Of a DNA stretch of 64,000 bases, positions 27,253 through 64,000 are shown in pieces. A program made the translations under genes and the position numbers. Numbering within the stretch: position 1 is the first letter of the stretch; each line of letters opens with the position of its first letter. Source of the stretch: Tridacna crocea (taxonomy: Eukaryota; Mollusca; Bivalvia; Cardiida; Cardiidae); contig OX031070.1 in assembly GCA_943736015.1 (NCBI GenBank), positions 42,246,173 to 42,310,172 of the forward strand, in the 5' to 3' direction. Below the pieces are notes generated by a model. The model saw nothing but the letters and a program-made list of their open reading frames with translations, did no database searches and was not told the DNA's origin.

Positions 27253-27537
27253 TTTCTTTTAGTTTCGATGGAGGAAGAGTCCCGCCAAATGGCGAGAAAG
27301 GCCTCATCTGCGCATGTTCCGGAAGTCCAGAAGGTGCGCGCCACATTTTCTTTCCTAGTCCTGTATTGGTTGGTTTCTGAATGCTGGTAAAGGACGAGTT
27401 CATTGATTGGCTAATAGTTGGATCGTGTCTTGCTCGAATCGGAACTGACTTTCCGCCGGGAGACTGTCGTCTTGGAGAGTTCAGGTCCTGGAGAGATTTT
27501 CGGATGTCCTTGTCATCTCGGGTGAGGTTAAGTTTAA
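27253..27537 (-). CDS. Probable internal exon of an unrecognised gene
   Basis: On the minus strand a strong pyrimidine tract and acceptor (ttccttttctttctttcag) is followed by 94 codons without a stop and then a good donor (gtgagc). The exon starts with two bases completing a codon and ends with one extra base. The peptide is hydrophilic and rich in S, P, R and K, e.g. LTRDDKDIRKSLQDLNSPRR, QSPGGKSVPIRARHD, KKMWRAPSGLPEH, MRPFSPFGGTLPP. It looks like a disordered region with several S/T-P sites. The exon is visibly more GC-rich than its surroundings and is not a copy of any repeat family in the window. I do not recognise the family. The phase fits the exon at 63863-64000 on the same strand, which suggests one gene running leftward. 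Confidence 0.6.
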
Positions 27538-27599
27538 CTGAAAGAAAGAAAAGGAAATAACTTGAATCAGATTATCAGATCTTCGATCTTGTCGGCAAG

Positions 27600-28027
27600 G
27601 CGTTGTCTGCGCATGTCATATTCTTCGAAGATTCGACCTGTCTTATATGACGCATCACTCCCCCCATTATAGGGGGATTGTAGTAATGCCCGTTAATAAA
27701 GTAGCAATTGGGGAAATGGTTTTTATCAATTCGTTTGAGGAGAAATGAGACATATTTTAGCTCCAGAGTTCCCTAAACTATAATAATTTTTAGTGGCAAA
27801 AATTATTTGAAAAAAAAAACACGATCGATTCTCGCAAATCTTTGTATACAGTATCTAAAAAAATATATCAACACGGTACACCGAGTACATGTGCATTACT
27901 GAAGCCTATTTTAGTTTGAAATTCAAAGTAACGGTTGTCGCGTAGTAATGAAATCCGGTTGTGTACCTAGAATGCTCAAATTAGATAGATGAATATTTTC
28001 AGAATGCCATCTAGCGGGAGATAATGG
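27600..28027 (+). mobile_element. Family I element, long form
   Basis: GCGTTGTCTGCGCATGTCAT ATTCTTCGAAGATTCGACC ... ACACGGTACACCGAGTACAT ... GCCATCTAGCGGGAGATAATG. Begins 62 bp upstream of the minus-strand exon. Confidence 0.85.
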
Positions 28028-28117
28028 TCGGTAAGGAATTTTAATGCTAGTAACCAACAATTAAATCATTTTCCATCAATTAAAGTCACACTGAAGTTGT
28101 CCTCTGCAAATACATTT

Positions 28118-28330
28118 TAGCCAAGCTCTGTGAAAAGGGGGATTGATGTATCAACGAAAAGTATCGACTCAGGTCAGCCCTGCGCGGACTGCGCAGGCCT
28201 ACCTGGGTCGATATTTTTCGTTTATGGTGGATTTTTTGTATGTAAAAGGACCAGTCTACCTCATGATCAAGTTGGTTGGTTAAGATTGTGGCTCTTATGG
28301 ATCCATAACTATGTGATGAATAGGGCTGGT
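28118..28330 (+). mobile_element. Family E GC-hairpin element
   Basis: CTCTGTGAAAAGGGGGATTG ... ATCGACTCAGGTCAGCCCTG CGCGGACTGCGCAGGCCTAC CTGGGTCGAT ... GGACCAGTCTACCTCATGAT. Confidence 0.85.
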
Positions 28331-28567
28331 ATCAGGGAGATGATATGGGGGTGTGGACTGTAATCGGTGTTCATGTACATGCAGATTGGTCCCAGTGCCA
28401 CCTACCCGCACTTTAGTCAGAAATATTTAGCAACATATCCCTTCTCTGTTAACATTTATTTTTCCTATTTTTCTCCCTTTCAAATGTTCCATGTCCTACA
28501 TACTTTGTGTATTATATTTTGTATTAATTATAATTATGAATATGTAGATATTCAACGCAATAAAGGT

Positions 28568-28615
28568 GTATGTATGTATGTATGTATGTATGTATGTATA
28601 TATGTATGTATGTAT
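28568..28615 (+). repeat. (GTAT)n microsatellite
   Basis: About 12 GTAT units with one interruption. The preceding stretch (AATATGTAGATATTCAACGC AATAAAG) recurs at 49573, also followed by GTATGTATGT. Confidence 0.93.
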
Positions 28616-28764
28616 TAAGCCCCCTTTCGTCATAGCGAAATTTAAATAAGTCAACATTTGTGTCGAGTGGTTAACAGTAAGTAAAATGGTGGTTGTGCCG
28701 CTTGCTTTCAACATGAAACATAAAACTAAGTCAAAACACAGAGGCAGCTAAGTAATTCATGGGT

Positions 28765-28920
28765 TTCCCGGCTTTCACGTTATAGTGATAGAATGTGTCT
28801 CTGAAGCGCCTTGTCCAAGTGCCCGAGGACATTCCCACCTAAAGCCCGGTGCCTCGGGTTAAGATCGAACCCTGAACCCATGGATTACCAAACCCACCTA
28901 TTGACCATTGAGCCAAACAG
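28765..28920 (-). mobile_element. tRNA-like SINE head (type 3), reverse
   Basis: The minus strand reads TTTGGCTCAATGGTCAATAG and, downstream, GGGTTCAGGGTTCGATCT, i.e. tRNA A- and B-box spacing. No paired acceptor stem, so not a tRNA gene. Confidence 0.6.
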
Positions 28921-28921
28921 G

Positions 28922-29235
28922 GCCGAGCCCCAACAGCTCAGTCGGTAGCGTACAGGACTTAAGAACATGGGTTTGTGGCTTCATTCCCCGGCTCGGCGGA
29001 TTTCTTTCCAATGATTGACTGATAGTCATTTCGACACGGTTCATTTCGACCCTCTCTCAACCCTGACCATGGTTCCGATGATGGTTATTTGGAAAAGCAG
29101 CCAGTAGCTTGGAAAGAATATTGGGCGGAGTACTAGAAGGAGAAAAACCTCCAGGAAAGCATGGATATGTGCACTGGCCGCCGCAATATAACTGAAATAA
29201 TGTTGAAAACGGCGTTAAGCACCATACGATGAATC
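28922..29235 (+). mobile_element. tRNA-derived SINE (type 1)
   Basis: AGCCCCAACAGCTCAGTCGG TAGCG head; body AAAGCAGCCAGTAGCTTGGA; tail GAAATAATGTTGAAAACGGC GTTAAGCACC. Confidence 0.88.
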
Positions 29236-29288
29236 AAGCAAGCCACACAGCAGGACCCCACATAAGCTAGAAACATCACAGAGTTTAT

Positions 29289-29490
29289 TTAAACTCTTTA
29301 CCAAATGACAAAATTTTAGACTGGTCCAAATTGAAAGCACTTGCAGACGACAAAATAAACATATCTTAAAAAATGAAGCTAGACTTTCAAAAGGTAGAAA
29401 ACATTGTGGGAAAAGGAGAAAATGCTGGTTACCAGCATTTTCTCCTTTTCGCACAAAGTTTTCACAAGGCTTCTTCCTTAGGGTCGTAAT
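29289..29490 (-). mobile_element. TTAA-MITE family A, right end lost
   Basis: TTAAACTCTTTACCAAATGA ... palindrome ... TTCCTTAGGGTCGTAATC. Confidence 0.85.
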
Positions 29491-29660
29491 CTAAATCTAG
29501 TCTGAGTATTTTTATTGAGTTCATTTTGCCATTCCTGTCTCTAGGATACAAACAGTTGTTGTGTTTAAGCATTTCAATAAACTCTCATCTCGCGGTTGTC
29601 CATTTTATTTTTAGTGCGGATTTGGACAACGTAGGGGAGAAAACCGTGACTCAATTTCCA

Positions 29661-30027
29661 TTCGGCAAACCTCGGGTGATCCGTTGTCCCGGCATGTCAT
29701 ATTCTTCGAAGATATGACCTGTCTGCTATGACGGATCACCCATCCCAAATATACGGGAAAAGTAGGGCTTACAACAAAGCTATTGCCCAAGCTTGTAGGA
29801 AGGCTATTTTAATAAATGGCTGGTGCATAGATTACATGACAGCTGATCATAGCTGAATGAATCGCACCAGGTAACGTTTTAATAAACTAAACGTTTATTT
29901 TGAAATTCTAAGTAACGGTTGCCATTTTGAAAAGTAGGCCGGTTCTCTACCCAGAATGCCCAAATTAGATCGACGAGTGTTTGTAGAATGCCATCTAGCG
30001 GGAGATAATGTTCGGCAAACCTCGGGT
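29661..30027 (+). mobile_element. Family I element with flanking 17-bp direct repeats
   Basis: TTCGGCAAACCTCGGGT occurs at 29661-29677 and again at 30011-30027, directly at the GAGATAATG end. The left end also forms the hairpin GGGTGATCCG ... CGGATCACCC. Confidence 0.82.
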
Positions 30028-30225
30028 CATCTGTATATATATTATCAAACGAGTTGCGTGGGAATTTGTATGTGTAAGGAAACTGTATGGAAAATGAAGA
30101 GTGGCAAAAATTTTATTGGTCGTAAAAATTGTGACAGCTGTGAGACACGGTATATCGCTAGAACCACCTGAACAAGTTCTTCGTAGGAGTGTCCGAAATT
30201 TCGTATTCATTGTACATATTTATTG

Positions 30226-30482
30226 CCTGCAATACGCCAAAAGGGATATTCGGACATTTGCGTAAAGTGTTGTCTCGAATCAGCCTGCGCAGTCCGCGCA
30301 GGCTAATCCGAGACGGCACTTTACGAAAGCACTAGATTTTATCCTTCATTAGACTTGCGCAAAACAGAAAATCACATAAAAACGGAAAGTGACGTTTCAG
30401 ATTAGCCTGCGCGGGGTGCGCATGCTCATCCGAAAAGCCTTTTTATGCAAATGTCCGAATGCTCCTTTCCGCGTCTTGCAGG
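30226..30482 (+). mobile_element. Family D double-hairpin MITE
   Basis: CCTGCAATACGCCAAAAGGG ATATTCGGACATT ... first hairpin AGCCTGCGCAGTCCGCGCAG GCT, second hairpin GATTAGCCTGCGCGGGGTGC ... TGTCCGAATGCTCCTTTCCG ... CTTGCAG. Confidence 0.9.
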
Positions 30483-30512
30483 TCAAATTTGACGGCATTG
30501 TGATTATCTATT

Positions 30513-30827
30513 TTAACGCTTTACCTAACGACAATATTTTAGACCAGACCAAATTCAAATTCAAATTTCCAGACGATTCACTAGATGTAGTTCTTAACTC
30601 TGCCAGACAATAAAATTCTAGACTGGTCCAAATTGAAAGCACTTGCAGATGACAAAATAAACAAACCTCAAAAAATGATATTAATTTGTTTTCAGGAGGG
30701 TAGAAGACGTTGTGGGGAAAAAGGAGAAAATACTGGTTACCAGGATTTTCTCCTTCTACATATGTTTTCAAGAGGCTTTTTTTTTTCCAAGGTCTTATAA
30801 AGTCGGGATTGTGTGATAAGGAGTTTA
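30513..30827 (-). mobile_element. TTAA-MITE copy with a second start (partial duplication)
   Basis: TTAACGCTTTACCTAACGAC (30513) is broken off by a second start, TTAACTCTGCCAGACAATAA (about 30595), which continues through the palindrome to GTGTGATAAGGAGTTTA. Confidence 0.78.
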
Positions 30828-31154
30828 GGAAATTAAAAAAAGGGGCGGTAAAATGTAGCTAGGAATTTGCTTCTCTCCAGATGTTATCGAAAACTGTTCA
30901 CCTTTAGTTAATAAAAAATTCACACACGTGTCGTAATAATTAAATAATATTTCCAAAATGTGCTGATTCATGAACGATATGACACTGTAGAATATGTTTA
31001 ATATCTAGACATTTTTGTAAAGCTTTAACAATCATATTTGATAATAATAATAATAAAAAAGATACGAGCCATGCTCTGACAAGAGGAAGCTTAATGAATC
31101 TCCGCGGCGTATTATACCACATGTAATCATATATCCATAATTAGCCACTTGTTT

Positions 31155-31707
31155 TAAAGGTGGGTATTTAGAATTTTCACATCACACCAAATTAAAAAAT
31201 ATATATGTCACTGAAATTTAAAAATGAAGATACAATACAAATCATCAGTAATTAAGAATCATAAATTTACACAAAACTTTTTTTTTTGGTGGTATTCCCT
31301 TAAAAGGCTACGTAGCCTCTTAAGCTATATTTAGATTTCTTGCCAAATTAAAAAAAAAGCATTGTGGGAATGTTAAGTGACTTGCACGTGACTAATGACT
31401 ATTAAATTCCATAACATTACACCATGTAATTATTTTCCGTAATGTCTAGAACTTCCGCCGCTATGTTTGAAGCTGCGTTTGTATATTTCCGGTATGTAAA
31501 TTAGCCAGTTGCTCATGTAAGAATAGACCGTGTTTCCCTTCAGTGTCGACCTTGGCTGTAGTAAATATCTAATTCATCTTGTTGTCGGACGGTTTTCGAC
31601 TACTGGGTTTTAATGAATGAAAAATATAAGGCTTTGGGAGTATAAGGATGATTATTTTTTGTATTTTTGTAAAATTTTCGTCCCAAAATCTGAAGGGCCA
31701 CCTTTAA
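31155..31707 (+). mobile_element. Family M DNA element, about 550 bp
   Basis: TTTAAAGGTGGGTATTTAGA ... AAAAGGCTACGTAGCCTCTT ... CTGAAGGGCCACCTTTAAA. Same family as 6690-7206, opposite orientation. Confidence 0.85.
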
Positions 31708-31717
31708 AAATCGACGC

Positions 31718-31865
31718 AATCATAAGGTAGACTTCTCCTTGGACATACCGAAAATTGACCGATAGCGAAAAGTTTCGGCCCAGGTCAGCCTGCGCGGACT
31801 GCGCAGGCTGATCTGGGTCGATACTTATTCGCAAATGTACTAAGCCCCTTTTTCACAGAGCACTG
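31718..31865 (-). mobile_element. Family E GC-hairpin element
   Basis: ATAAGGTAGACTTCTCCTTG GACAT ... GGCCCAGGTCAGCCTGCGCG GACTGCGCAGGCTGATCTGG G ... CCCCTTTTTCACAGAGCA. Confidence 0.88.
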
Positions 31866-32042
31866 CTGTAATATAGTCATTTAATCGTCAATTTATTACA
31901 GAAATTAAATGTCAATAATTTCTTTACAGAAAATGACGTCACACATATTTTGTAAGAGAGACCAGAACAAAAAGGAAAGCAGAAATATGTAATTGAAGAT
32001 TTTTCTGAATATGGCAATGACAAATATTCATTCGCCTTTCCC

Positions 32043-32272
32043 TTAACTCTTTACCAAACGACAACATTTTTAGACTAGTCCAAATTGAAAGCACTTGCAG
32101 ACGACAAAATAAACATAACTCAAAAATTGAAATTTGTTTCCAACAGGATGGAAAACATTGTGGGAAAAGGAGAAAATGCTGGTTACCAGCATTTTCCCCT
32201 TTTCCCAAGATATTTTCGAAAGGCATCTTTCTCAGAGTCGTAAAAACCAGGGATTATTTGGTAAAGGGTTAA
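32043..32272 (-). mobile_element. TTAA-MITE family A
   Basis: TTAACTCTTTACCAAACGAC ... palindrome ... GGTAAAGGGTTAA. Shares the TTAA at 32269-32272 with the next copy. Confidence 0.94.
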
Positions 32273-32487
32273 CCCTTTATCGCACAATCACCTGTTTTTA
32301 CGACCCAGAGAAAAAGATCTTTTGAAAACATTGTGAAAAAGGGACAAAATGCTGTTAACCAGCATTTTCTCCTTCTCCCACAGTGACTTGTTCTCTTTTA
32401 AAAACAGATTTCACCATTTAAGCTACATTTAATTGTCGTCTGCAATTGCTCTCGAATTCGAAAAGTTGTTTTCTCTTGGTAAACGAT
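32269..32487 (+). mobile_element. TTAA-MITE family A
   Basis: TTAACCCTTTATCGCACAAT ... imperfect palindrome ... TCTCTTGGTAAACG. Confidence 0.85.
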
Positions 32488-32707
32488 TACAACACAATCC
32501 CTAATTTTGACGACCCTGAGAAAGACGCCTTTAGAAAACATCGTGGGAAAACGAGAAAATGCTGGTAACCAGCATTTCCTCCTTTTTCCACAATGTTTTC
32601 TACCCGTTACAAAGCAAAATTCAAATTTTCAGTCACTTTTATTTTGTCGTTTGCAAATGCTTTCGATTTGGACAAGCCGAAAACTTTGTCTTTTGGTCAT
32701 GAGTTAA
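32488..32707 (+). mobile_element. TTAA-MITE family A, third in a row
   Basis: ATTACAACACAATCCCTAAT ... palindrome ... TTGGTCATGAGTTAA. Confidence 0.88.
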
Positions 32708-32819
32708 TTGGTAATCTCCCGCAGAGAAATTTGTTTTTTGAAACCAGCAGGAGAAAAAATTGAAGTACATTATGGCATAAAGAAGCCGACTAATCTGTAT
32801 AGATATTTTCTTTCACCTT

Positions 32820-32929
32820 TTTCCATTGTGTTTTCTGTGCTTTTTTAAGACAAACTTTGCATTTGTACTACACATGTGTCGTTTGCAAATGCTTCAAAAT
32901 AGGTTTTGTCCAAAAAAATTGCTGTTTGG
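32820..32929 (+). mobile_element. TTAA-MITE remnant
   Basis: TTTCCATTGTGTTTTCTGTG ... GTCGTTTGCAAATGCTTCAA ... GCTGTTTGG, cut by the Mutator-like insert that follows. Confidence 0.6.
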
Positions 32930-32938
32930 TATATATTA

Positions 32939-33251
32939 CTCAGTTCCATTAAAAAGTGCACTTAATTTTCTTACAAGATATCGATTGAAAAATTACAAAA
33001 ACTTTAAGAAAAACCTAACTTTAATGTTACCTTAGTCTTTGAGTACTTTTGCTACTTTGGTTTTAGTACGACCTTCATTTAAACTGCAGAAAACCTAACT
33101 TAAACTTTCTATTAGTCAAAATCTGATTAGCCTGGCACTTTCTACCGACTCTGAGCTATATAAGGTATGATAACAATTTTGTTGGTCTTCAGCAAAATAT
33201 GCGCCGAGAAATAAAAGAAAAATTAAGTGCACACTTATTTATGGAACTGAG
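32939..33251. mobile_element. Mutator-like mini-element with perfect 9-bp target duplication
   Basis: Inverted ends CTCAGTTCCATTAAAAAGTG CACTTAATTTTC and GAAAAATTAAGTGCACACTT ATTTATGGAACTGAG. TATATATTA occurs immediately outside on both sides (32930-32938 and 33252-33260). A 9-bp duplication is typical of the Mutator superfamily. 313 bp, no ORF of note. Confidence 0.85.
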
Positions 33252-33581
33252 TATATATTACGAGTATGTCAGTCCAAACTGGAATCTAGGCAGATCGGAA
33301 TCTGCCCGGACAAAACTGGAATTCTGTCTAGACCGAATTCGGATTCCCACTTATTGCAAAGTTGAGACAATTTTCGCGTTGATTTAGGAAAATATTTAAC
33401 TTCTCTAGCAAAGACTACCATATCCCTCAAAAAAAAAAAAAAGTTTTTGGCCCGCTAAGACTCGAACCTACTTCACTTAGGCAACACACCTCGTACACAA
33501 TCATCAGAGTAAATAAGGCTTGGTAGAAACACCCATGGGTAACGATTATAAAGTTTATTGACACTTCAGGTTTACCCTTTA

Positions 33582-33827
33582 CCGCCCGCCCGGATGGGTC
33601 AGTGATGAGCGTGTCGGGCTCATGACCTGGTGGTTGTGAGTTCGATACCGGCGTATTTTCGTCTCTGACCTTTGCTGAAGCATCTGAGAAAAGTAGTCGG
33701 TGGCTTTGGAAAGAAAGTTGTGTTAGTACCGGTGTAAGAAAGCCAGGACACACGTGTGCGTCACCCACCGCCATGATATGACCTTAGCTGTTAAAGTGGC
33801 GTTAAACCCCAATACAACCAACCAATA
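33582..33827 (+). mobile_element. tRNA-derived SINE (type 2)
   Basis: GCCCGCCCGGATGGGTCAGT head, GGTTGTGAGTTCGATACC B-box region, body AAAAGTAGTCGGTGGCTTTG, tail GATATGACCTTAGCTGTTAA AGTGGCGTTAAACCCC. Related copy at 54739. Confidence 0.85.
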
Positions 33828-34053
33828 ACCTTTTACCACACAATGACGACTTTTAACGATCCTGGGAAAGAAGCCTTTTGAAAACAATTTGGAAAAAGGA
33901 GAAAATGCTGGTAACCAGCATTTTCTCCTTTTCCCAAAATGTTTTCTACTCCATCAAAAAATGATTTCACTGTTTGAGCCACATTGAAATTGTCATCTGC
34001 AAATGCTTTCAATTCTGACAAGGCTTAAATTTTGTCGTCTGTTACAGGATTAA
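33826..34053 (+). mobile_element. TTAA-MITE family A
   Basis: CCTTTTACCACACAATGACG ... palindrome ... GTCTGTTACAGGATTAA. Confidence 0.88.
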
Positions 34054-34086
34054 CTATTAAGCGGGCGACATGACGTTAGTAATGTC

Positions 34087-34285
34087 CAAATTGACAGCAT
34101 TTGCAGACGACAAATTACATGTGATTCACCTGATAAAATTCGTTTTCGAATGGATAGAAAACAGTTTGAGATAAGGAGAAAATGCTGGTAACCAGCATTT
34201 TCTCCTTTTCCCAAAATGTTTTCAAAGGCCTTAAATATCTTGTAGGGTTATATAAGTTTGGATATTGTTTGATGCAGGGTTTAGG
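34087..34285 (-). mobile_element. TTAA-MITE family A, left end lost
   Basis: CCAAATTGACAGCATTTGCA GACGAC ... palindrome ... TTGATGCAGGGTTTA. Confidence 0.8.
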
Positions 34286-34454
34286 AGAAGATATAAACGT
34301 GTGAAGTGGCCAGAGGTCATGAAGGGGTGATAATAAAAGGTATAATAAAATAATAAATTCTGCTCTTTAAAACTGACATGTGAATACTAATGAAGGGGAC
34401 ATTTCCTCTGTGACTCATGTATAATAATCTCTTTAAGATGACTCGCTTAGTTCT

Positions 34455-34527
34455 TTCGGACGATGTAGATCAAGATCCGACAGCGCAGAACGTGCACTCT
34501 GATCTTGAATATACACTGTCTGTTTAT
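34455..34527. mobile_element. Family G hairpin, decayed
   Basis: GGACGATGTAGATCAAGATC CGACAGCGCAGAACGTGCAC TCTGATCTTGAATATACACT GTC. Confidence 0.7.
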
Positions 34528-34555
34528 ACAAGCTAAATCTGTGTTGTTTATTGTT

Positions 34556-34558
34556 ATG

Positions 34559-34591
<33 letters not shown>

Positions 34592-34607
34592 ATTATTATT
34601 ATTATGA
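34556..34607 (+). repeat. (ATT)n microsatellite
   Basis: About 15 TTA units with two single-base breaks. Confidence 0.93.
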
Positions 34608-34889
34608 TTTTTCTTAAAATGAAACTTCTTTTCCGTCATGTTATCAAAAGGTTTCTAAGGCAGGAACGGGAAAAAGTCGTTCTTGTATTGTCATCGATTT
34701 TATTTTTGAAGTTGGGGTAAACTCCATTGTTTACGATGTTTTCTAAAGGTCGACAGGAAAGACAAAAAAAAAATACGTCCATGTATCCTAATTGGTATCT
34801 AGCATGCTAGTGGGAATGCTCCTTCTTCCGTAATATTTTGACAAGGTCGAAAGCAGAGACATTCGCAAAAGGATGAACTGTGTAATAGC

Positions 34890-35240
34890 TTATTACGACA
34901 TTTGGGGTCCAAGCCCTGTACATAGTGCAGTTGGTAGCAAATGTAGTGGGGGTGGGGAAAGGGTTGGTTTGACAAGACAACGGGATCGCTGAATTGAATA
35001 CCCAACTTGGCGAATCTCTTTTCGCGGATTGATGATAGTCATTGCGACAAATTCCACCCCTCTATCACAGCCAAATATTGCTTCGACGAGTGTTATGTGG
35101 GAAAGCAGTCATTGGTTGGGGGGGGGGAATTCTGGCGAACAATTGGAAAAAAAGAAACTCAGGGTCAGTGTTGATAGGTGCACTGGCAACCGAGATATAA
35201 CTGAAACATTGTTCAAAACGGCATTAAACACATTCTAGAT
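34890..35240 (+). mobile_element. tRNA-derived SINE (type 1), degraded
   Basis: Head remnant CAAGCCCTGTACATAGTGCA GTTGGTAGC; body GCGGATTGATGATAGTCATT; tail GAAACATTGTTCAAAACGGC ATTAAACAC. Confidence 0.72.
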
Positions 35241-35254
35241 AAACGACTATATTA

Positions 35255-35392
35255 CATGGAAGAACAGTCCTTTGATATGAAAAAAAAAAAAAAGATTAAT
35301 AGCTAGAAGTTTCGACCCAGATCAGCCGGCGTGGACTGTGCAAGCTGACCTGGGTCGACCTTTTTATACCGATGCATTAAACCCCCTTTTAT
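35255..35392 (-). mobile_element. Family E GC-hairpin element
   Basis: GAACAGTCCTTTGATATG ... CGACCCAGATCAGCCGGCGT GGACTGTGCAAGCTGACCTG GGTCG ... TTAAACCCCCTTT. Confidence 0.82.
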
Positions 35393-35441
35393 CGGTACGT
35401 AGCCAGTGGGCCTCATAAGCTACTTCATCTCTAGTATTTGT

Positions 35442-35700
35442 GGCCCCATCACGCAAAAAGGGACCATCTTGGAATTCTGTACATCAATTAGATGAAAACA
35501 GATCAACGATACTGCAGGTCAGTTTAAGTTGTTAATTAAGAAATGATGGTATAACAAGGTACAATGACCACTTTTCATACTGAAAATGTCATTAAAGCGA
35601 AAAGTTTCAACTCTGGTCAGCCTGCGCAATTCGCGCAGTCTGACCAGGGTTGACACTTTTCGCAGGTCCCAGATGGTCCCTTTTGCGTCATGGATCACAT
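35442..35700 (+). mobile_element. Family F GC-hairpin MITE
   Basis: CCCCATCACGCAAAAAGGGA CCATCT at left and AGATGGTCCCTTTTGCGTCA TGG at right are inverted. Hairpin CTGGTCAGCCTGCGCAATTC GCGCAGTCTGACCAG. Confidence 0.9.
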
Positions 35701-36135: not shown

Positions 36136-36142
36136 TAGTCTT

Positions 36143-43500: not shown

Positions 43501-43527
43501 GTTAAATCAATATACATAGATTAATAT

Positions 43528-43755
43528 GAACCCTTTACAAAATAATGTCGTCTTTGTAACGACCCTGACGAGTAAAAATGGTTGAAAACATTGTTGGAAA
43601 AGGAGAAAATGCTGGTAACCAGCATTTTCTCCTTTATCAACAATGTTTTCTACATTATAGGACAAGTTCCATGACTTATAATATATTCAATTATGTCGTC
43701 TGCAATTGTCCCCAAAGTTCGATCAGTATTATATTTTGTCGTTTGGTAAAGAGAA
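43528..43755 (+). mobile_element. TTAA-MITE family A
   Basis: AACCCTTTACAAAATAATGT ... AACATTGTTGGAAAAGGAGA palindrome ... GTCGTTTGGTAAAGAG. Confidence 0.86.
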
Positions 43756-49376: not shown

Positions 49377-49662
49377 GAACTCTGTGGTCAATGGCTTAAA
49401 TCCTGACAGTACAGGAATTCAGACTTTAGGTATCGATATATAGAACAATAGATCCAATACAAACAAGATTAAGGCGTACTGATACGTTTATTTCTCCCAT
49501 TTTCTCCCTTTCATATGTTCCATGTCCTACATACTTTGTGTCATATATGTTGTTATAAATCATAATGCTGTGAATATGTAGATATTCAACGCAATAAAGA
49601 AACGTATGTATGTATGTTTATATAAATTATACACGCAAGTCATGATCTGGCAACAGGGGGCT

Positions 49663-49890
49663 TAACTCTTTACCAGACGACAAAATTTTAGACCGATCCA
49701 AATTGAAAGCACTAGCAGACGACAAATTAAACATATCTCAAAAAATGAAATTTATTTTCAGCAGGGTAGAAAACATTGTGGGAAAAGGAGAAAATGCTGG
49801 TTACCAGCATTTCCTCCTTTTCCCACAGTGTTTTTTAAAAGGCTTCTATCTCAGGGTCGCAAAAACCAGGGATTGTTTTGGCAAAGGGTT
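49663..49890 (-). mobile_element. TTAA-MITE family A
   Basis: TTAACTCTTTACCAGACGAC ... palindrome ... TTTTGGCAAAGGGTT. Confidence 0.92.
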
Positions 49891-49949
49891 GCATTATCCG
49901 TGTAAGCAAGTTATCACGTGACCATGGACCCATGAAGTTCATTTTGTTT

Positions 49950-55245: not shown

Positions 55246-55279
55246 CAAACACTCGCCACTTGCCCCACAATGCTCCTTT

Positions 55280-55411: not shown

Positions 55412-55612
55412 AAAAGTATCGCTTCAGGTCAGCATACGCATTTTGCGCAAGCTGAAGGGTCAATTTTCTGCATATTAAAGGATCAGTCTACCCAATAATT
55501 CAGCCTTTTGTTCGTCAGAGTGGATTTTACGGATCCATAACTATAATGTGATGACTTGCCAGGTATAATACATTACGCAGGTGCAGTAAACCCCCTTTAC
55601 ACAGAGCATGGC
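55412..55612 (+). mobile_element. Family E GC-hairpin element, decayed
   Basis: AAAAGTATCGCTTCAGGTCA GCATACGCATTTTGCGCAAG CTGAAGG ... GGATCAGTCTACCCAATAAT TCAG ... TAAACCCCCTTTACACAGAG CATGG. Confidence 0.82.
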
Positions 55613-55653
55613 TAAAATGAAATAAATGTCATTGTATTCAGAAAACGTCGACA

Positions 55654-55881
55654 TTAACCCTTTACCCCATAAGGCATTTCCATGGTATCTCTAAATGACC
55701 CTATATAACAGCAAGGATGAACCCTTTCTTATGTGTATCTGACACTTTTTGATAGCATAGAGTACATTGTGACAAAAGGTGAAATTGCTCGTCACGAGCA
55801 ATTTCACCTTTTGTCACAATGTTTTCTAATGGCTCCTACAAGCAATGCGTCGAAATGAGTATCTGTGGAGTAAAGGGTTAA
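55654..55881 (+). mobile_element. TTAA-MITE family B
   Basis: TTAACCCTTTACCCCATAAG GC ... TTGTGACAAAAGGTGAAATT GCTCGTCACGAGCAATTTCA CC ... GGAGTAAAGGGTTAA. Confidence 0.95.
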
Positions 55882-56021
55882 AAGAGTTGCGATGTTTTGT
55901 TTTGATATTGCAGGAAGTGACTGTTTTTAATATTTAATTGTGATCGTATTTCAAAATCAATATTCAACTCGACCGACAACTATTGTGGTGTATAAACCGA
56001 TTGTTCGCTTCCTATGCTTTT

Positions 56022-56307
56022 TTAACCTTTTTTTCCAAATAAGCCTGAAGAAGATGACAAAATAAAAACATCGTGAGAAAAAGAAGAAATTACGGATAAA
56101 CAAACGATCCTGAATGAGTAGCCTTTTGGAAAAAAAAACACTGTGAGAAAAGAAGAAAATGCTGATAACCAGCATTTTCTTCTTTTCCCACAATGTTCCC
56201 TACCGATCCCAAAACAATTTTTTATTTTTGATTCACATTACTGCTGTCGTCTGTTAATGCTTCCAATTTGGACAAGACTCAATTTTTGTCGTCTGGTAAA
56301 GAGTTAA
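56022..56307 (+). mobile_element. TTAA-MITE family A with extra internal sequence
   Basis: TTAACCTTTTTTTCCAAATA AGCC ... a partial duplicate near 56060-56110 ... palindrome ... GGTAAAGAGTTAA. Confidence 0.8.
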
Positions 56308-56518
56308 CAGACCTTCTGAAACAAATTTGCTGCAGACGATTTTGAAATTTTATCCTATTGCCATATATAATATCCCTCATGCATGACCCATGTCCTGACA
56401 AAAAGAGGGAGGGGGGTTGACGTATCCCCGTTATCGTTATACAAAAGTCATCACTTAATTATTGTCCAACAACCAAATGAACCCTGAAACCTGGCGCTGA
56501 AAGGTTAAGCAAGCACCG

Positions 56519-56825
56519 GGGGGGGGGGGCGGGTACTAAAAGGTGTGCTCGCTTAAGACAGTTGGTCGCCTAATACAGGTACATATATAAATATCTGCCG
56601 TTCGGCGCAACTCAAAGCATGTATATTGGTCGCTTTATACAGGTACTTTCTAAATATCTGCCGACCGGCGCAACGCAAAGTGTGTATATTGGTCGCTTTA
56701 CACAGGTACTTTCTAAATATCTGCCGACCGGCGCAACTCCAAGTATGTATATTGGTCGCTTTATACAGGTACTTTCCAAATATCAGTAGTCTGGAGAAAC
56801 TCAATAAATGTATACTGTTCGCTTA
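56519..56825 (+). repeat. 63-bp tandem repeat, about 4 units
   Basis: GGTCGCTTTATACAGGTACT TTCTAAATATCTGCCGACCG GCGCAAC... starts at about 56564, 56628, 56691 and 56754, with a partial unit at about 56816. Preceded by a poly-G run (56519-56529). Period divisible by three, so both strands stay open, but no coding signal. Confidence 0.93.
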
Positions 56826-57033
56826 ATACAGGTTGAATGCTAAAAAAAGGTGGACACTTAGATTTTTCTTTGTTTGCACTTAAACTGTTGGCTTAAATTT
56901 TTTATTTAACTCGTTTAGCATTTTGAGAGGTAAAACTGAAACGTGAAATTTCTTTTTGTGTTTATATGCTTCGTAGACAGTATACTAGAACCTGTTATTT
57001 CAGATAACTTCATCTCTTTATGTGAAATATTTG
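56826..57033. other. Unannotated spacer
   Basis: AT-rich, nothing recognised. Confidence 0.4.
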
Positions 57034-57298
57034 CCCAGGTAGTGCAGTTTGAAGTGCAAAGGACTTGAAAACAGGTGGTCCCTGGTTCGGTGAATTGACG
57101 ATAGTCAGTGCTACAAGATTTTTTACACTTTAATCGCTAATAAATACTCGGATGATGGTAACGTGGGAAAACGAAAATATTATTGTGCGAAATATTAATA
57201 AAAGACACTCTAGAACAGCATTGATAGGTGCACTGGTCACAACAATTGTAACTGAAATAATGTTGAAAACGACATAAACGCCATACAATCGATCAATC
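57034..57298 (+). mobile_element. tRNA-derived SINE (type 1), degraded
   Basis: GCCCAGGTAGTGCAGTTTGA AGTGCAAAGGACTTG head; tail CACTGGTCACAACAATTGTA ACTGAAATAATGTTGAAAAC GACATAAACGCC. Confidence 0.75.
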
Positions 57299-57377
57299 CT
57301 TTTCTACAAACCCTGGTTAAAAAGTAAAATGAATAGACTGATTAGTCACTGGGTAATTACTTTCTAAGCCTTGCCTC

Positions 57378-57574
57378 AGAGCTCCAGATAAGGGGGGGGG
57401 GGGTTTGATGGTATTCTAAAGTCATTATTTCTCTTCAAAACCCTACGTTGTGAATATTAATTAGAATCGTCTCATCGAGACGATTCTAATGAGTACCCAC
57501 AACATGGGGTTTAGTGGAGAATGATTAATATTTCAATTTTGAAATAAAAATTACTCACCCGCTCTGGAGCTCTT
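57378..57574. mobile_element. Small element with AGAGCTCCAGA inverted ends
   Basis: AGAGCTCCAGA (57379) and TCTGGAGCTCT (57563) are inverted. CAAAACCCTACGTTGTG / CACAACATGGGGTTT also mirror. The centre is TTAGAATCGTCTCATCGAGA CGATTCTAA (57461-57489), a perfect hairpin. Confidence 0.8.
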
Positions 57575-57987
57575 TTGGTTTATATAGAGATATACAAGTA
57601 TCTTGTAAGTAGTTAACAAAAAATATCTATTTCAATCTGTGCTCAACAAAACTTTAGATATACAGTAATAACTAATGACGGATATTTTTCTCAAAGTTTT
57701 GACATATTAATAAAGTATTCTAAAACTCGACCATATAAACAAGGGTCATTATACTGTACATAAGACTTTTATTTACAGAACAAATATACTTGTCTAACAT
57801 TTTAATGGCAAAAACTTATCTTTACAGCTGCAAAGGGAAGAAATTTGTGTACAGCCAGCAGAATTCATTAAAAGTAAGTCTATTTTGGATATACAAATAT
57901 CCCCCCCCCCCCCACCTCCCCAACCTCCTGCATCAGGTTGCCATCCTGTTGCTCAGAATTAACTCAAAAAAAAAATCCAATAACCCC
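57575..57987. other. Unannotated stretch
   Basis: AT-rich, with a poly-C run at 57901-57913. No exon accepted. Confidence 0.4.
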
Positions 57988-58232
57988 CCTTTAACTTTTA
58001 ACCAAACGTCTCAATTTCAGACTGGTCCAAATTGACAGCTTTTTCAGACGACAAAGTTTGATTTGATTCAAAAATTGAAATTTGTTTTTGGAAGGTAGAA
58101 AAAATATTGTGGGGAAAAAGGAGAAAATGCTGGTTTCCAGCATTTTCTCCTTTTCCCCCCTACAATGTTTTCAGAAGGTTTCTTTTACAGGGTCGTGAAA
58201 ATAAGGGGTTGTTTGGGAAAGAGTTTTAAGTG
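57988..58232 (-). mobile_element. TTAA-MITE family A
   Basis: CCTTTAACTTTTAACCAAAC GTCTC ... AATGCTGGTTTCCAGCATT palindrome ... GTTTGGGAAAGAGTTTTAA. Confidence 0.85.
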
Positions 58233-58289
58233 GGTAAAAATAATCATGTTCATTGGGAATTCTAGGTGAGTGGGTGGGGATAACTTGCT

Positions 58290-59330
58290 TGTTTTATAAA
58301 TTTGTGGTCTTGGTGTTTGTTTTTGAGTGTCACATTTTGGTCTGTTATATACCCGTCCTGTGTGATTTGTTGTTTTATACGGTCTTTTAAACAGGTTTCT
58401 ATTATGATTTATGCTGTATTCTGCCTTACAGTCCGTTATTATATAAATATAATAGAATTGTGGCCTTTTATTTTATGTCACTTATAAAGTTATCTTGCAT
58501 CCAGTTATTGGTCAAATTTGCTCCCTACGTCATGATCTTTTAATATATTGCTGTTACGTAGCTTTGGTTTGATTTTGGCGGAGGTTGTCTGTTTTAAAGT
58601 ATAGTATAGTGGTCTGTAGGGGTCTTTTTATACATTTATGTTGTGTAATAGTCTGTTATATGGTTATTCGTTATATAGTGTACTGTTATACACTGGTCTG
58701 TTTTATACATTTATGTTCCACCAGCGGATACAGCTCAGAAGGTGGAGCGTAGGACTCGTGAACACAGTGTTTCGGGTCACTACAGGTTGTGGGTTCGAAT
58801 CCTCGGCTGGCCAACTAAAATTACTAATAGTCTTTCGGATGAGACAGTAAATCGAGGTCCCGTGTGACGGTGCTATACGCCGAGCACGTTAAAGAACCAG
58901 GCGAAGCTCTAAGTAGTTTGGACCTGTATCCTTGCACTATCCCCCGTAACAACTAACCGTCCTCTGGGGGCGTTGCTCAGATTGGCAACCGGTAGCGACA
59001 ATAAATAAACGAAAATAACCAACTGGTCTTTTATATACATTTATGTTATTTACTGGTCGTTATAAATTAGTCTGTTATATACTGTTCTTTGATATTGTGG
59101 CTTTTTTGTTTTACAATATGGTATGTTTTAAAGTTGTCTGTGATGTGATTGTGTCTTATTTAGCAGTCATTTATAATTGATGTTCGTTAAATGTTGGTCT
59201 GTTATTTTGATTTGTGTTATAAAGGAGTGGGTTTTATTGACGTCTGATGTATGGTGATCAATTATTTAGTCGTCTGTAATATGGTGAATGTAAATTACGT
59301 AACTGACTGCTTCATATAAGCTTATTATAA
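58290..59330 (+). repeat. Degenerate 'GGTCTGTTATATAC' repeat region hosting a SINE
   Basis: Variants of TGGTCTGTTATATACNTTTA TGTT recur irregularly on both sides of the SINE at 58717-59025. TTTTATACATTTATGTT lies directly left of the SINE and TTTTATATACATTTATGTT just right of it. Confidence 0.7.
58717..59025 (+). mobile_element. tRNA-derived SINE with conserved central domain (type 4)
   Basis: CCACCAGCGGATACAGCTCA GAAGGTGGAGCG head; GGTTGTGGGTTCGAATCCTC B box; central CTTTCGGATGAGACAGTAAA TCGAGGTCCCGTGT, a motif widely conserved in metazoan SINEs; (AATAAA)-like tail. Confidence 0.85.
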
Positions 59331-59554
59331 AGTTGCACAGTTTTTTTTTTTCAATGACTTTTTATTTCAAAAAAAGAAATGGCCACTTATTGTGGTCTAT
59401 AACATAGGTGTCTGTGAACGACACGACGAAAGGAGAAAGCACGCGTGACGAAAACGTTATTCCTTTTATTACAATGTTCATCTTTCTATTGAACCTTAAT
59501 CCATGTTGTTTGTATTAAAGTCGTCTGCTCCATATTTGTTTCAGGAAGTAATGA
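59331..59554. other. Decayed MITE-like spacer
   Basis: ACGAAAGGAGAAAGCACGCG ... TCCTTTTATTACAATGTTCA ... TTGTATTAAAGTCGTCTGC recalls a highly decayed family A copy. Confidence 0.4.
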
Positions 59555-59782
59555 TTTAACCCTTTACCACAACAATTCCTGATTTAATGATCCTAAGGGA
59601 AGATTTTTCAAAACATTGTGGGAAAAGGGGAAAATGCTGGTAACCAGCATTTTCCCCATTTTCCACAATGTTTTCTACCCTAACATAAACAATTAAAAAT
59701 TGTGGAGACACATGCATTTTGTCGTCTGCTAAGGCTGTCAATTTGGACAAGTCAAACATTTTGTCATGTTGTACAAAGTTAC
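59555..59782 (+). mobile_element. TTAA-MITE family A with a compensated palindrome
   Basis: TTAACCCTTTACCACAACAA ... GGGGAAAATGCTGGTAACCA GCATTTTCCCC, with the change made on both arms ... GTCATGTTGTACAAAGTTA. Confidence 0.9.
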
Positions 59783-59814
59783 GGCCAGAATTCAATGTAT
59801 CTCAATACGATATA

Positions 59815-60598
59815 AATCAAAGCGTTGAGAACGCTGAAGTGTATTTGTCAAGGAAGCCATTGTGTTGAATTATAACATGAAAGAAAAAGGGAATTATTAA
59901 AATATTGGCTTGACAGTCAACCTACTGAGCAGATGATACCTTTTTTGGTCAGATGGAGAGTACTCATGACAAATTTGGTCAAAGGGAGAGTACTCATGAC
60001 AAAGTTAGGATTATTCGTGTATTGGTGGTCTCTCTTTGATCATAAGAAGAAATCAGGAGTAACGTCCCTCGACAGTAGGATGCATGATGGGTAGAGAGAG
60101 AAATCATGTAAATAGATCGAATAGAATTAAGTTTAGACGAGAAAACTTTGATTTGAAATATATATTTGGCTGTTAACATTAAATTCCGAACATTACTGTC
60201 AATTATTTCGATCTATACATATCCATGCCCTCTCGAATGGAGTAGCACAAAATCATGCGATGAGCAAGCCATGGGACGAACTGGTTTTTAAACGAAAAAG
60301 CTCAGAACCAAGCGATCAGTAGACAAATCATTGCGCTAATAGAAGGCTATGACCGAGTAAAGCTATTTAAATAAAAAAAGAAATAGTATTTCCACGATCG
60401 ATGGCCTCACCCAGTAAATCTTAACATGCCATTTCCAACTACATATCTCAGTGCTACCGAAAAACTCGTTTGCCTTGCAAAAATTGAATTTAATTGGGTT
60501 TATTTCCTTCGGTTTTGCACAAAACGCGATACATGGTCTTCAAAATTCAATATTGAACTCATAGTGGTATTGTCTTCGACAAATACTAGTACCACAAA
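59815..60598 (+). mobile_element. Family O DNA element, second copy
   Basis: AAATCAAAGCGTTGAGAACG CTGAAGTGTATTTGTC to TTGTCTTCGACAAATACTAG TACCAC. A 25-bp stretch (GGAGAGTACTCATGACAAA) is locally doubled near 59960-60005. Confidence 0.85.
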
Positions 60599-60692
60599 AA
60601 GGAGCCTTCTTTCGACAGCTGTATATGCAATCCACAAAAATTCAGAAAAATTCCTTTTTATCGTACAGACTATGGAAACATGCACACAAAAT

Positions 60693-60748
60693 AGATCCGA
60701 GATCAGCCTGTATGATCTGTGCAGTCTGATCTTGATCCATGCCGTTCG
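60693..60748. mobile_element. Family G hairpin, decayed
   Basis: GAGATCAGCCTGTATGATCT GTGCAGTCTGATCTTGATCC, followed by a poly-A run. Confidence 0.65.
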
Positions 60749-60794
60749 CAAAAAAAAAAAAAAAAAAAGTTTTCCGCATACGTCGCTGGAAGAA

Positions 60795-61005
60795 TTAAGT
60801 CTTTACCAAACGACAAAATTTTAGACTGGTCCAAATTCAAAGCAGACGACAAAATGAACGTAACTCAGAATTGAAATTTGTTTCCAGCAGGGGAGAAAAC
60901 ATTGTGAGAAAAGGAGAAAATGCTGGTTACCAGTATTTTCTCCCTTTCCCACAATTTTTCCAAATTCTCATGATCTTAAAACCAGGGCTTGTTTGGTAAA
61001 GGATT
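60795..61005 (-). mobile_element. TTAA-MITE family A
   Basis: TTAAGTCTTTACCAAACGAC ... palindrome ... CTTGTTTGGTAAAGGATT. Confidence 0.9.
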
Positions 61006-61364
61006 CAGCTAGAACACGAGCCGGTGCGAATCCTTTGAGAGTTTGATAATAGAAAGTGTGACATTATTTTCTGCAAAAAAATGCCCTAACATAGGAATTT
61101 CAAGGTTGTTTTAATAGAAATATCATGTCAAAAATCGTGTGGTATAGATCTTAGATCAGACTGCACATTTCTGTACAGTCCGATTTTGATCTCGATCACA
61201 AGGAAAAGCAACTTACGCAAAAAAAAAGAAAAAAAAAAAAACAGAAATCTTTCGCCGCTCATAGAAAACTTAATCCTTATTCTTGTGAATAAAATAATTA
61301 GACACCTGCAAGTCGGTAGTGAAGACCCCAGGTCGCTATTTCTCTTTTTTTGAGAAGAAATATA
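61006..61364. other. Unannotated stretch with one family G relic
   Basis: Hairpin GATCTTAGATCAGACTGCAC ATTTCTGTACAGTCCGATTT TGATC at 61147-61192. No exon seen. Confidence 0.5.
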
Positions 61365-61371
61365 GACTTTA

Positions 61372-61443
61372 TCGGAAAGTGTAGATCAAAGATCAGACTG
61401 CACGTTCTGTGCAGTCTGATCTTGATCTACACTGTCCGCGAAA
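61372..61443. mobile_element. Family G hairpin element
   Basis: CGGAAAGTGTAGATCAAAGA TCAGACTGCACGTTCTGTGC AGTCTGATCTTGATCTACAC TGTCCG. Confidence 0.9.
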
Positions 61444-61639
61444 AGGTCGGCAAGCCACGCTTAGCAGCTTAAGGGCAAAGGGATAATCTGGGCTAAATTA
61501 TTACTAATTACAACAGCTTAGACTTAACGCATGTATACAACTAATAATCTTGTCCAAATCTATAATCCTATTTGAGAATACGATAGTAAAATTGCACGTC
61601 TGTTCCGTTTATAAATGTGTCCGATGAAATACACATATA

Positions 61640-61890
61640 TGTTCTGTGAAAAGGGGGCTTAATGCATCTGCAAACAGCATCGACTGAGGTCAGCCTGCGC
61701 AGTCCGCGCAGGCTGACCTCAGCCGATACTTTTTGCTATCGATCAATTTTCTGCATGTCAAAAGACCAGGTTACCTAATAATTGAGTTGGTTTGTTGAAC
61801 AGAATTTTTTTTTGTAGACCGCGAACCTATGTGATGACTTGCTTGGTATAGAAAATCGTGGAAATGTATTGAACCCTGTTTTGCTAGAGA
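61640..61890 (+). mobile_element. Family E GC-hairpin element
   Basis: TCTGTGAAAAGGGGGCTTAA TGC ... ATCGACTGAGGTCAGCCTGC GCAGTCCGCGCAGGCTGACC TCAGCCGAT ... AAGACCAGGTTACCTAATAA TTGAG. One arm pair (CTGAGGTCAG/CTGACCTCAG) is changed on both sides. Confidence 0.9.
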
Positions 61891-61959
61891 ATAGCCCATA
61901 ATTATATAGATTGTTGAAATTACCGACAAGTGCTGTGGGTTTTCATTTTGTTTGAAAAA

Positions 61960-62050
61960 GGAGAAACTCCAGGAAAGCATGACCGGGTGCACTGGCCGCC
62001 GCGATATAACTGAAATAATGTTGAAACGGCTTTAAACACCATACAATCAA
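61960..62050 (+). mobile_element. SINE (type 1) 3' part
   Basis: GAAACTCCAGGAAAGCATGA CCGGGTGCACTGGCCGCCGC GATATAACTGAAATAATGTT GAAACGGCTTTAAACACC. Confidence 0.9.
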
Positions 62051-62079
62051 CCAATAAATCAATCAATCAGTCAACGAAC

Positions 62080-62120
<41 letters not shown>

Positions 62121-62121
62121 T
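62044..62121 (+). repeat. (CAAT)n tail microsatellite
   Basis: CAATCAACCAATAAATCAAT then (CAAT)n, expanded from the SINE tail. Confidence 0.93.
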
Positions 62122-62310
62122 TCCAATTTGAAAGCATTAGTGGACGACAAATTCGGTCTAAAATGACGAGATTTATCTCTGGGACGGATGAAAACAACGT
62201 GGAAAAAGAAGGAAAAATGTTGGGTACCAGCATCCTCTCCTTTTCCAAAGATTGGTTAAAAGACCCTTCTGATCAATGGCCGTGAACATTCAGGTTTGTC
62301 TATATATTAC
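62118..62310 (-). mobile_element. TTAA-MITE remnant
   Basis: CCAATTTGAAAGCATTAGTG GACGACAAATT ... GTTGGGTACCAGCATCCTCT CC ... decayed end. Confidence 0.65.
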
Positions 62311-62394
62311 CTTAGAAACTAAGATCGACTGGTCGTAACTTTTTACCAAATAATCTGGAGCTTAAACAACCCTTAGGTGGCTTGGCGGGACCTT

Positions 62395-62470
62395 CTGTGG
62401 ACAGTGTAGATCAAGATCAGACTGCACAGAACGTGCAGTCTGATCTTAGATCTACACTATCCGATAAGGA
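62395..62470. mobile_element. Family G hairpin element
   Basis: GTGGACAGTGTAGATCAAGA TCAGACTGCACAGAACGTGC AGTCTGATCTTAGATCTACA CTATCCG. Confidence 0.92.
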
Positions 62471-62568
62471 CATATTATACCCTAAAACGTAACTATGAAA
62501 TTTAAAAAAAATGGAGGTTTTGATATTGAATTGAAAAATTAAATTACAGTCATTTAGATAGATAAGAG

Positions 62569-62798
62569 TTAACCCATAACCACACAACCCCTACTTTAAA
62601 CGCCCCTGAGAAAGAAGCCTTTAGAAAACATTGTAGGAAAAGGAGAAAATGCTGGTGACCAGCATTTTCTCCTTTTCCCACAATGTTTTCTACCCTTCAC
62701 AAAACAAATTTCAAATTTTCAGTCACTTTTTATATTGTCGTCTGCAAATGCTTTCGATTTGGACAAGCCTAAAATACTGTCGTTTGGTAATGAGTTAA
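62569..62798 (+). mobile_element. TTAA-MITE family A
   Basis: TTAACCCATAACCACACAAC ... palindrome with TGGTGACCA loop ... GGTAATGAGTTAA. Confidence 0.94.
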
Positions 62799-62859
62799 CA
62801 TGCCCGTAGACGGAAGTCTTTTAACCCTTAAGGTGGTAAGCGCGACTCACTGGCCTTTT

Positions 62860-62936
62860 GCGGACAGTGTAGATCAAGATCAGACTGCACAGAACGTGCA
62901 GTCTGATCTTGGATCTACACTGTCCGATAAGGGCAT
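62860..62936. mobile_element. Family G hairpin element, near perfect
   Basis: GCGGACAGTGTAGATCAAGA TCAGACTGCACAGAACGTGC AGTCTGATCTTGGATCTACA CTGTCCG, flanked by CTTTTG and ATAAGGGCATATTATCCC. The extended context matches 62380-62480. Confidence 0.92.
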
Positions 62937-63130
62937 ATTATCCCTCAAATCATAACTTTGAACTAGTAGTAATTAGATATTTATTATCGCTTTGAAAATT
63001 TAATTTTAGTTTATTTAGAAGGATAGGGGCTGAAAGTTTTTTTTTTAAAATGACACAAACGATAGCATTTGTTTTTGAAAAGGTAAAAAAATTATTGGGA
63101 GATTGAATCGATCGATTCAATAGATTTGAA

Positions 63131-63625
63131 CGCCATTTTTCACATTATTTCAGCTATATCCGTGCTTTCCTGGGCCCGTATTCACTAAATTCATCAACCA
63201 TTCTTGAGAATATTCTTAGTCTTCTTCTCCAAGGTTTTTTTAAATTTGTAAGTAAGACAATTTCTGATTGGCTAAACCGAATGGTTTAGCCAATCAGAAG
63301 TTGTGTTACTTACAAATGTAGAAAATTCTAGAGAATAAGACAAAGAACGTTCTTCAGAATGGTTGGTGAATACGAGCCCAAGTGTTTTTCTCACATGTAC
63401 CATTACTGCGTACGATATTCCTTTAAAGCCACCGGCTGCTTTTAAACATAGAAGTTGCCGTCGTCGAAACAACGATCCACGACGAGACAAGAATGAATCC
63501 CGTCGCAGTATAGGTATCATCAGTCCTCGTAAATATATCGGCCAATCTGGGAATTCGAAGCAACGACCCCATGTTCTCAACTCTTGTGTGCTACCAACTG
63601 CGCAAACAGGGCTCGACCAAATACT
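63131..63625 (-). mobile_element. tRNA-derived SINE (type 1), reversed, split by family H
   Basis: Minus strand: CGAGCCCTGTTTGCGCAGTT GGTAGC head (63625), GATGATACCTATACTGCGAC body to 63380, then after the family H insert the tail GGAAAGCACGGATATAGCTG AAATAATGTGAAAAATGGCG TTCAA (63171-63131). Confidence 0.85.
63172..63379. mobile_element. Family H foldback element inside a SINE
   Basis: GGGCCCGTATTCACTAAATT ... GGCTAAACCGAATGGTTTAG CCAATCAGAAGTTGTGTTAC TTACAA ... GGTTGGTGAATACGAGCCC. Confidence 0.92.
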
Positions 63626-63862
63626 TTGAGTGGAAAAAAGGGGGTGGGGAGAGAATAAGATACTCGGCATGTAGCCACCTAAACAACCACTACCCCCCGA
63701 ATACTGTAAACTTGCATTGTAATTGATAACTCGATGTCGTGGTCTTCTTTCAATGGTGAATAATATATATCCGAGCGAAAAAATAGTGCGAAAATCATCA
63801 TAGTAAAAGAAGGTAAAAAATGGTCAAAGATAAGAAAGTTAAAAGAAAAAAAAAAAACTTAC
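63626..63862. other. Unannotated stretch (intron of the minus-strand gene, if real)
   Basis: AT-rich, ending in a poly-A run that is the T-rich intron start behind donor gtaagt on the minus strand. Confidence 0.4.
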
Positions 63863-64000
63863 CATTCATATTCAGGGTCATTGTTTTAATGTCTTTCAAA
63901 CTTTTGGCGGTACTTAACGGTTGTCGTAAAACCTTTGGTCGAATCACTTCACTTCCATTATTATCCAATTTATAACCGCCATTTCCGCTTTCCGGTACGA
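63863..64000 (-). CDS. Probable exon (cut by window edge) of an unrecognised gene
   Basis: On the minus strand the last 138 bases are open in only one frame (45 codons) and end at a consensus donor, gtaagt, at 63862-63857. Peptide pieces: VPESGNGGYKLDNNGSEVIR, PKVLRQPLSTAKSLKDIK, TMTLNMN. The other two frames hit stops quickly. It ends with one extra base (G), which joins in frame to the two leading bases of the 27537-27253 exon. It is not part of any repeat family seen. Function unknown; a 5' UTR or chance open frame cannot be excluded. Confidence 0.5.

Follow-up and report, generated by a model that had tools for sequence, protein, structure and literature searches.

The 64,000-nucleotide window analyzed here, from the bivalve Tridacna crocea (assembly GCA_943736015.1, contig OX031070.1, forward-strand positions 42,246,173 to 42,310,172), contains two segments that are probably adjacent coding exons of the same gene, an ordinary one on the minus strand that is present in a single copy and converges with the gene for CDC45. 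The window corresponds to G000:C15:42246173-42310172 of the 1.05-Gb assembly, and neighboring DNA was added to it to give a region of 184 kb; window numbering is continued to the right of position 64,000. A preliminary description of the window had noted two segments, 27253-27537 and 63863-64000, that are open on the minus strand only, and this is borne out by the absence of stops in the named frame and the presence of 1-6 stops in each of the other five. Here they are assigned to a large exon on the right (exon A) and a probable last exon on the left (exon B), with the following features in the order of the predicted transcript.

65650-63863 (G000:C15:42311822-42310035), minus strand: exon A, 1,788 bases; 63863-64000 is its 3′ end inside the window
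63862-63857, minus strand: donor site GTAAGT at the phase-1 end of exon A; 10.1 bits
63862-27538, minus strand: predicted 36,325-base intron, roughly 60% of it repeats, with no convincing intermediate exon
27564-27538, minus strand: polypyrimidine tract with the CAG acceptor of exon B; 12.5 bits
27537-27224, minus strand: exon B, the probable last coding exon, with two codon-completing bases, 103 codons and the stop codon TAA at 27226-27224; a donor-like sequence lies inside it at 27253
27002-26997, minus strand: candidate polyadenylation signal AATAAA, about 220 bases past the stop codon and followed by a GT-rich stretch, GTTCGGTGTTTC

There is good support for a minus-strand gene that converges with CDC45. 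The most economical model for it joins exon A directly to exon B across the 36,325-base intron, and this junction is likely on the sequence features described below. In this model, transcription would begin at a 5′ exon above window position 65650, and most of the protein would come from exon A. The intron, enlarged by copies of small DNA transposons, would be removed by splicing, and exon B would add the final 103 codons, the stop codon and the 3′ untranslated region. If translation begins at the first ATG in exon A, the product has 699 residues.

Coding properties of exon A

Exon A is genuine coding sequence. From its first ATG (65648) it reads through 595 codons with no stops, and the other five frames across the same interval have 10-61 stops each. 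Its openness certainly exceeds chance, as the probability of 615 open codons at this base composition is about 1e-16 to 1e-19. The 3-base periodicity of exon A is 11.2. In 115 overlapping intron windows of the same length the median is 0.77 and the highest value 2.4; exon A has 4.7 times the latter. Composition differs between codon positions, and the G+C content is 45% versus 38% for the intron. The preliminary description had only the part of this exon that lies within the window; the whole is 13 times longer and reaches 65650.

The splice signals bordering the two segments, which had been described as good, scored well. The acceptor of exon A has 12.4 bits (ttttttttttatcttccag, followed by TAATG), and a score as high as that of the donor at 63863 is reached by just 31 (0.31%) of the 9,903 minus-strand GT dinucleotides in the 184-kb region. 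The claim that the two segments share a split codon also holds, with the right-hand segment ending in AAT G before GTAAGT, and the left-hand one starting with TT after ttctttcag, so that the joined codon would be GTT (Val). Neither segment contains a repeat that occurs elsewhere in the region, in agreement with the earlier observation that the left-hand one matched no repeat, and each has one place in the assembly. A protein search of the whole assembly found exon A once, the next match having an expectation value (E) of 2.2 among the best candidates, which alone were scored.

The open reading frame (ORF) that holds exon A was listed as 63801-65708, and stays open for 21 codons beyond the 3′ end of the exon. 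In the 58 kb upstream of exon A there are 43 minus-strand ORFs of at least 55 codons with less than 40% repeat, the three longest of which are at 101-106 kb; the one of these three that was tested matches RVT_1.

Exon B as the probable last coding exon

The acceptor of exon B (27537) is in the top 0.07% of the region's 10,199 minus-strand AG dinucleotides, and just upstream of it is a CTGAT that resembles a branch point. The preliminary description ended this exon at 27253, but the frame runs on to the TAA at 27226-27224, and the donor at 27253 (GTGAGC, 7.5 bits, top 1.3% of GTs) is not needed. Since the frame meets this stop codon and then the AATAAA, exon B is most simply read as a terminal exon rather than an internal one. 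It is single copy by both DNA and protein search, with the next protein match at E 7.1, again among the best candidates scored.

On the minus strand between 5 and 63.8 kb, 74 acceptors reach 8 bits or more, and these gave 19 acceptor-and-phase candidates with at least 40 open codons. Exon B has the strongest acceptor of the 19, and among those listed is the only repeat-free phase-1 candidate with more than 42 open codons. One listed frame is longer (24742, 108 codons), and is in phase 0 and 44% repeat. Control lists, which held the ten longest frames of at least 50 codons, were drawn up for 84 plus-strand, 156 reversed and 133 complemented acceptors. They included longer frames of 145, 139 and 113 codons, all of them 77-100% repeat, and the longest repeat-free frame among the listed controls had 77 codons, with none at 103. 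Under a Markov-1 null model, none of 100 simulated 59-kb sequences gave a phase-1 ORF of at least 103 codons after an acceptor of at least 12.4 bits, and 4 of the 100 did so when any phase and an acceptor of at least 10 bits were allowed. The case that exon B exceeds chance is good, but weaker than that for exon A.

The predicted intron

The interval 27538-63862 had been described as a giant intron made of miniature inverted-repeat transposable elements (MITEs), and this is partly correct. Matches elsewhere in the 184-kb region, or in 34 short loci from other parts of the genome, cover 60.1% of it, and it carries 41 of the 252 copies of one MITE hairpin core found in 304 kb (see later), but about 40% is non-repetitive by the same test. 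The repeat mask behind the repeat percentages wrongly takes window positions 1-4000 for repeat, as two of the loci overlap them, but with those loci removed the figure for the intron is still 60.1%. Bivalve introns may be long because of interspersed repeats, and this one shares that source of length. In a study of Arctica islandica (PMC11899663) the mean intron length is given as 2,805 bases, about 13 times less than the 36 kb seen here; a long tail in the length distribution is expected, and the intron is not unusual in kind.

A scan of the intron for exons of at least 30 bases, with both splice sites scoring at least 4 bits, gave 21 phase 1-to-1 candidates, none of which was a convincing phase-compatible exon. 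The best of these sums to 15.6 bits and lies entirely within repeat; the corresponding sum for exon A is 22.5. As no intermediate exon combines good splice sites with unique sequence, direct joining of exon A to exon B is the simplest arrangement.

Weighing of alternative gene models

Several observations count against the proposed gene. Stop-to-stop ORFs of at least 100 codons are not rare in this DNA (112 in the six frames of the 184-kb region), and the matrices behind the splice-site scores are approximate. Codon usage, scored after training on 30 kinase loci, distinguished neither exon from the background; this score was dropped, two pieces of CDC45 being equally inseparable. The earlier proposal that the segments are consecutive exons of one gene is upheld as regards the gene, and direct joining is its most economical form, but the periodicity of exon B (0.91) is at background level, being matched or exceeded by 46% of 67 intron windows with less than 30% repeat. 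At 309 bases this test has low power, with 4 of 52 kinase-coding windows as low as exon B. When exon A was cut into windows of the same length, 4 of 25, all in its last third, scored 0.37-0.93, and three pieces of CDC45 scored 0.75-1.23. Because kinase windows known to be coding and windows of exon A can score as low, the periodicity test is a weak one for exon B, but it lends the exon no support. Also unfavorable is that exon A contains donors equal to or better than that at 63863, namely one at 64887 with 12.3 bits that leaves in phase 0, and one at 64154 with 10.3 bits that leaves in phase 1 and hence is also compatible with exon B. The exon may then end at 64154, or at 64887, always or in some transcripts, leaving 63863-64000 as intron or as alternatively used sequence. 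However, the frame is uninterrupted across both inner donors, and the periodicity is 4.87 for 63864-64886 and 2.21 for the last 288 bases tested, 63864-64152 (95% point 1.92 and maximum 7.2 in 72 intron windows). Given this open frame and the periodicity of the last part, exon A most likely extends to 63863, with alternative ends possible, and a consistently or sometimes earlier end is distinctly improbable. Splicing at 63863 could also fail to occur at all, making exon A the last coding exon with a stop codon at 63800-63798; the frame does stay open that far, but the 21 residues added (GKFFFFLLTFLSLTIFYLLLL) are the translation of a T-rich tract lying behind one of the best-scoring donors of the region, and this ending is very unlikely.

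A further model accepts exon A but not its direct junction with 27537-27224, one or more short exons being present in the 36-kb interval, or exon B being spurious and the 3′ exon elsewhere. Besides the lack of 3-base periodicity in exon B, it draws on the ability of short exons to evade the scan, which covered lengths of at least 30 bases, and on 69 candidates in the interval with both sites of at least 5 bits, ten of which are less than 30% repeat. An example of these is 56394-56313 (18.5 bits in total), but it passes from phase 1 to phase 2 and would require a partner exon that enters in phase 2 and leaves in phase 1; the 21 single phase 1-to-1 candidates are mostly embedded in repeats or have poor sites, and among the listed candidates exon B ranks first both in acceptor strength and in the length of its repeat-free phase-1 frame. 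This model is unlikely. That exon B is internal, ending at 27253 with the gene continuing towards CDC45, is improbable: its GTGAGC donor would give an exon of 285 bases running from phase 1 to phase 1, and a repeat-free phase-1 acceptor with 42 open codons is available at 22106 (9.3 bits), but the stop codon and AATAAA already provide an end, and the longest listed frame of at least 40 codons in the 15-27 kb interval (that at 24742) is incompatible in phase. Finally, the open frames might be transposable-element remains rather than a host gene. The region is rich in repeats, and a reverse-transcriptase frame is found about 36 kb further to the right; yet neither exon matches the repeats of the region, and neither occurs in multiple genomic copies as a transposable element would, the protein searches giving one genomic place for each among the best candidates scored. 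Such an origin is highly improbable.

Predicted protein and character of the gene

The predicted 699-residue product contains 12.3% Ser, 8.4% Pro, 7.6% Thr and 7.2% Asn, and is poor in Trp, Tyr and Phe. Searches of Pfam-A gave nothing above the curated cut-off for exon A, and no match for exon B or for the joined 149-residue end of the protein. The only candidate for exon A, the yeast family Bul1_C, had an E of 0.008 and 16.1 bits, below the cut-off of 24.2, and was treated as a chance match. A phmmer search of PDB chains (E up to 10) returned no matches for exon A or for the joined 149-residue end, which includes exon B.

The product is probably disordered, which is consistent with these data, although they are not proof of it. 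An AlphaFold2 prediction for exon A from its single sequence gave a mean predicted local distance difference test (pLDDT) score of 36.6, with no residue at 70 or above, which agrees with disorder but is common for a lone sequence. By charge and hydropathy the product lies barely across the boundary into disorder (0.410 vs 0.414), and 31% of the residues score above 0.2 on a disorder scale. The preliminary description had pointed to S/T-P sites, and 11 are indeed present in the 699 residues, but they are not enriched (mean of 11.7 in shuffled sequences). Similarly, none of ten short-motif patterns, including S/T-P, KEN and RxxL, reached P <0.10 against 500 shuffles. An intracellular, disordered adaptor or regulatory protein, working via short linear motifs, is the best guess at its role.

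The ratio of observed to expected CpG falls from 1.11 for exon A and 0.96 for exon B to 0.86 for the intron and 0.63 for three pieces of CDC45. In bivalves, a high CpG ratio is usually taken as a sign of sparse gene-body methylation, a trait of tissue-specific genes.

Exons A and B have canonical splice sites in compatible phase, and exon A has a long, stop-free frame with coding periodicity, as is usual for spliced genes. With ordinary metazoan genes for domain-less proteins, those of the orphan or fast-evolving disordered kind, the gene has in common the open coding exon, the GT-AG sites, the compatible junction phase, the single copy, the disorder-type composition and the lack of a family match, and no structural difference from them was found. 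Most likely, it is an ordinary gene to which no known family is assigned, with nothing categorically new and no new mechanism. More tentatively, and with considerable doubt, it may be a lineage-restricted gene for a disordered protein, perhaps found only in molluscs or bivalves, that standard annotation overlooked through the 36-kb separation of its exons in repeat-rich DNA. If the proposed gene structure is true, it adds one more single-copy gene of unassigned family beside CDC45, and is a plain case of repeats stretching an intron until annotation could lose the terminal exon; the gene has no bearing on any open mechanistic question.

Neighboring genes

The gene for CDC45 was confirmed on the plus strand, so that the convergent arrangement claimed earlier is correct, and the stop codons of the two genes are 12.4 kb apart.

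950-14837, plus strand: CDC45, in pieces 950-1129, 1976-2140, 10792-10910 and 12285 to about 12361, with a last exon ending in TAA at 14835-14837; the 5′ part is further left
L013:7496-7615, left of the window, minus strand: exon of UFD1 (Pfam E 3e-17, PDB E 3e-16)

Two pieces match the CDC45 family (PF02724) above the cut-off, 1976-2140 with 62.6 bits and 950-1129 with 54.6 bits, the latter match crossing one TAA, so that its edges are inexact. Two more are below the cut-off but collinear, at profile positions 543-571 (E 0.054) and 581-604 (E 0.062). The last exon was placed by means of a motif of human CDC45. The UFD1 exon is about 13 kb from the first located CDC45 piece, and because it is on the minus strand to the left of the plus-strand CDC45, the two genes are divergent, as are human UFD1L and CDC45. 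UFD1L and CDC45 are successive entries in a gene table of 22q11.2 (PMC4487986).

To the right of the window there are two long, open plus-strand frames that begin very similarly, 124298-127117 with 940 codons and 153157-156051 with 965; a Pfam search at E up to 0.1 gave no match for the first. A cluster of long minus-strand frames is found at 100821-105830, and since one of these (L005:7460-8581) matches RVT_1 (E 1e-25), the cluster is probably a retrotransposon without long terminal repeats.

A dense, hairpin-cored mobile element

The hairpin core counted in the intron belongs to a dense mobile element of about 230 bases with ends of the TTAACCCTTTnCC type (TTAA target type), the 65-base core of which is a near-perfect hairpin. 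Examples within the intron 27538-63862 are as follows.

43524-43754: hairpin-cored element
49656-49891: hairpin-cored element
59548-59784: hairpin-cored element

An affiliation with piggyBac or Kolobok is a guess. A search with nhmmer (E up to 0.01) gave 155 copies of the core in the 184-kb region and 97 more in 33 other loci totaling 120 kb, or about 0.8 per kb, and a straight extrapolation of this density would give several hundred thousand copies in the genome. Being unusually dense, the element may merit more attention than the gene.

The arms of the core were compared, without gaps, in 201 of the 252 matches, the other 51 being left out for low identity. Both arms have a common consensus. 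Identical changes at symmetric positions of the two arms occurred 139 times, compared with 43 expected and a maximum of 68 in 1,000 shuffles of arms between copies, and a further 958 changes affected one arm only. Since just six variants make up 88 of the 139 symmetric changes, inherited subfamilies with intact palindromes may lie behind them.

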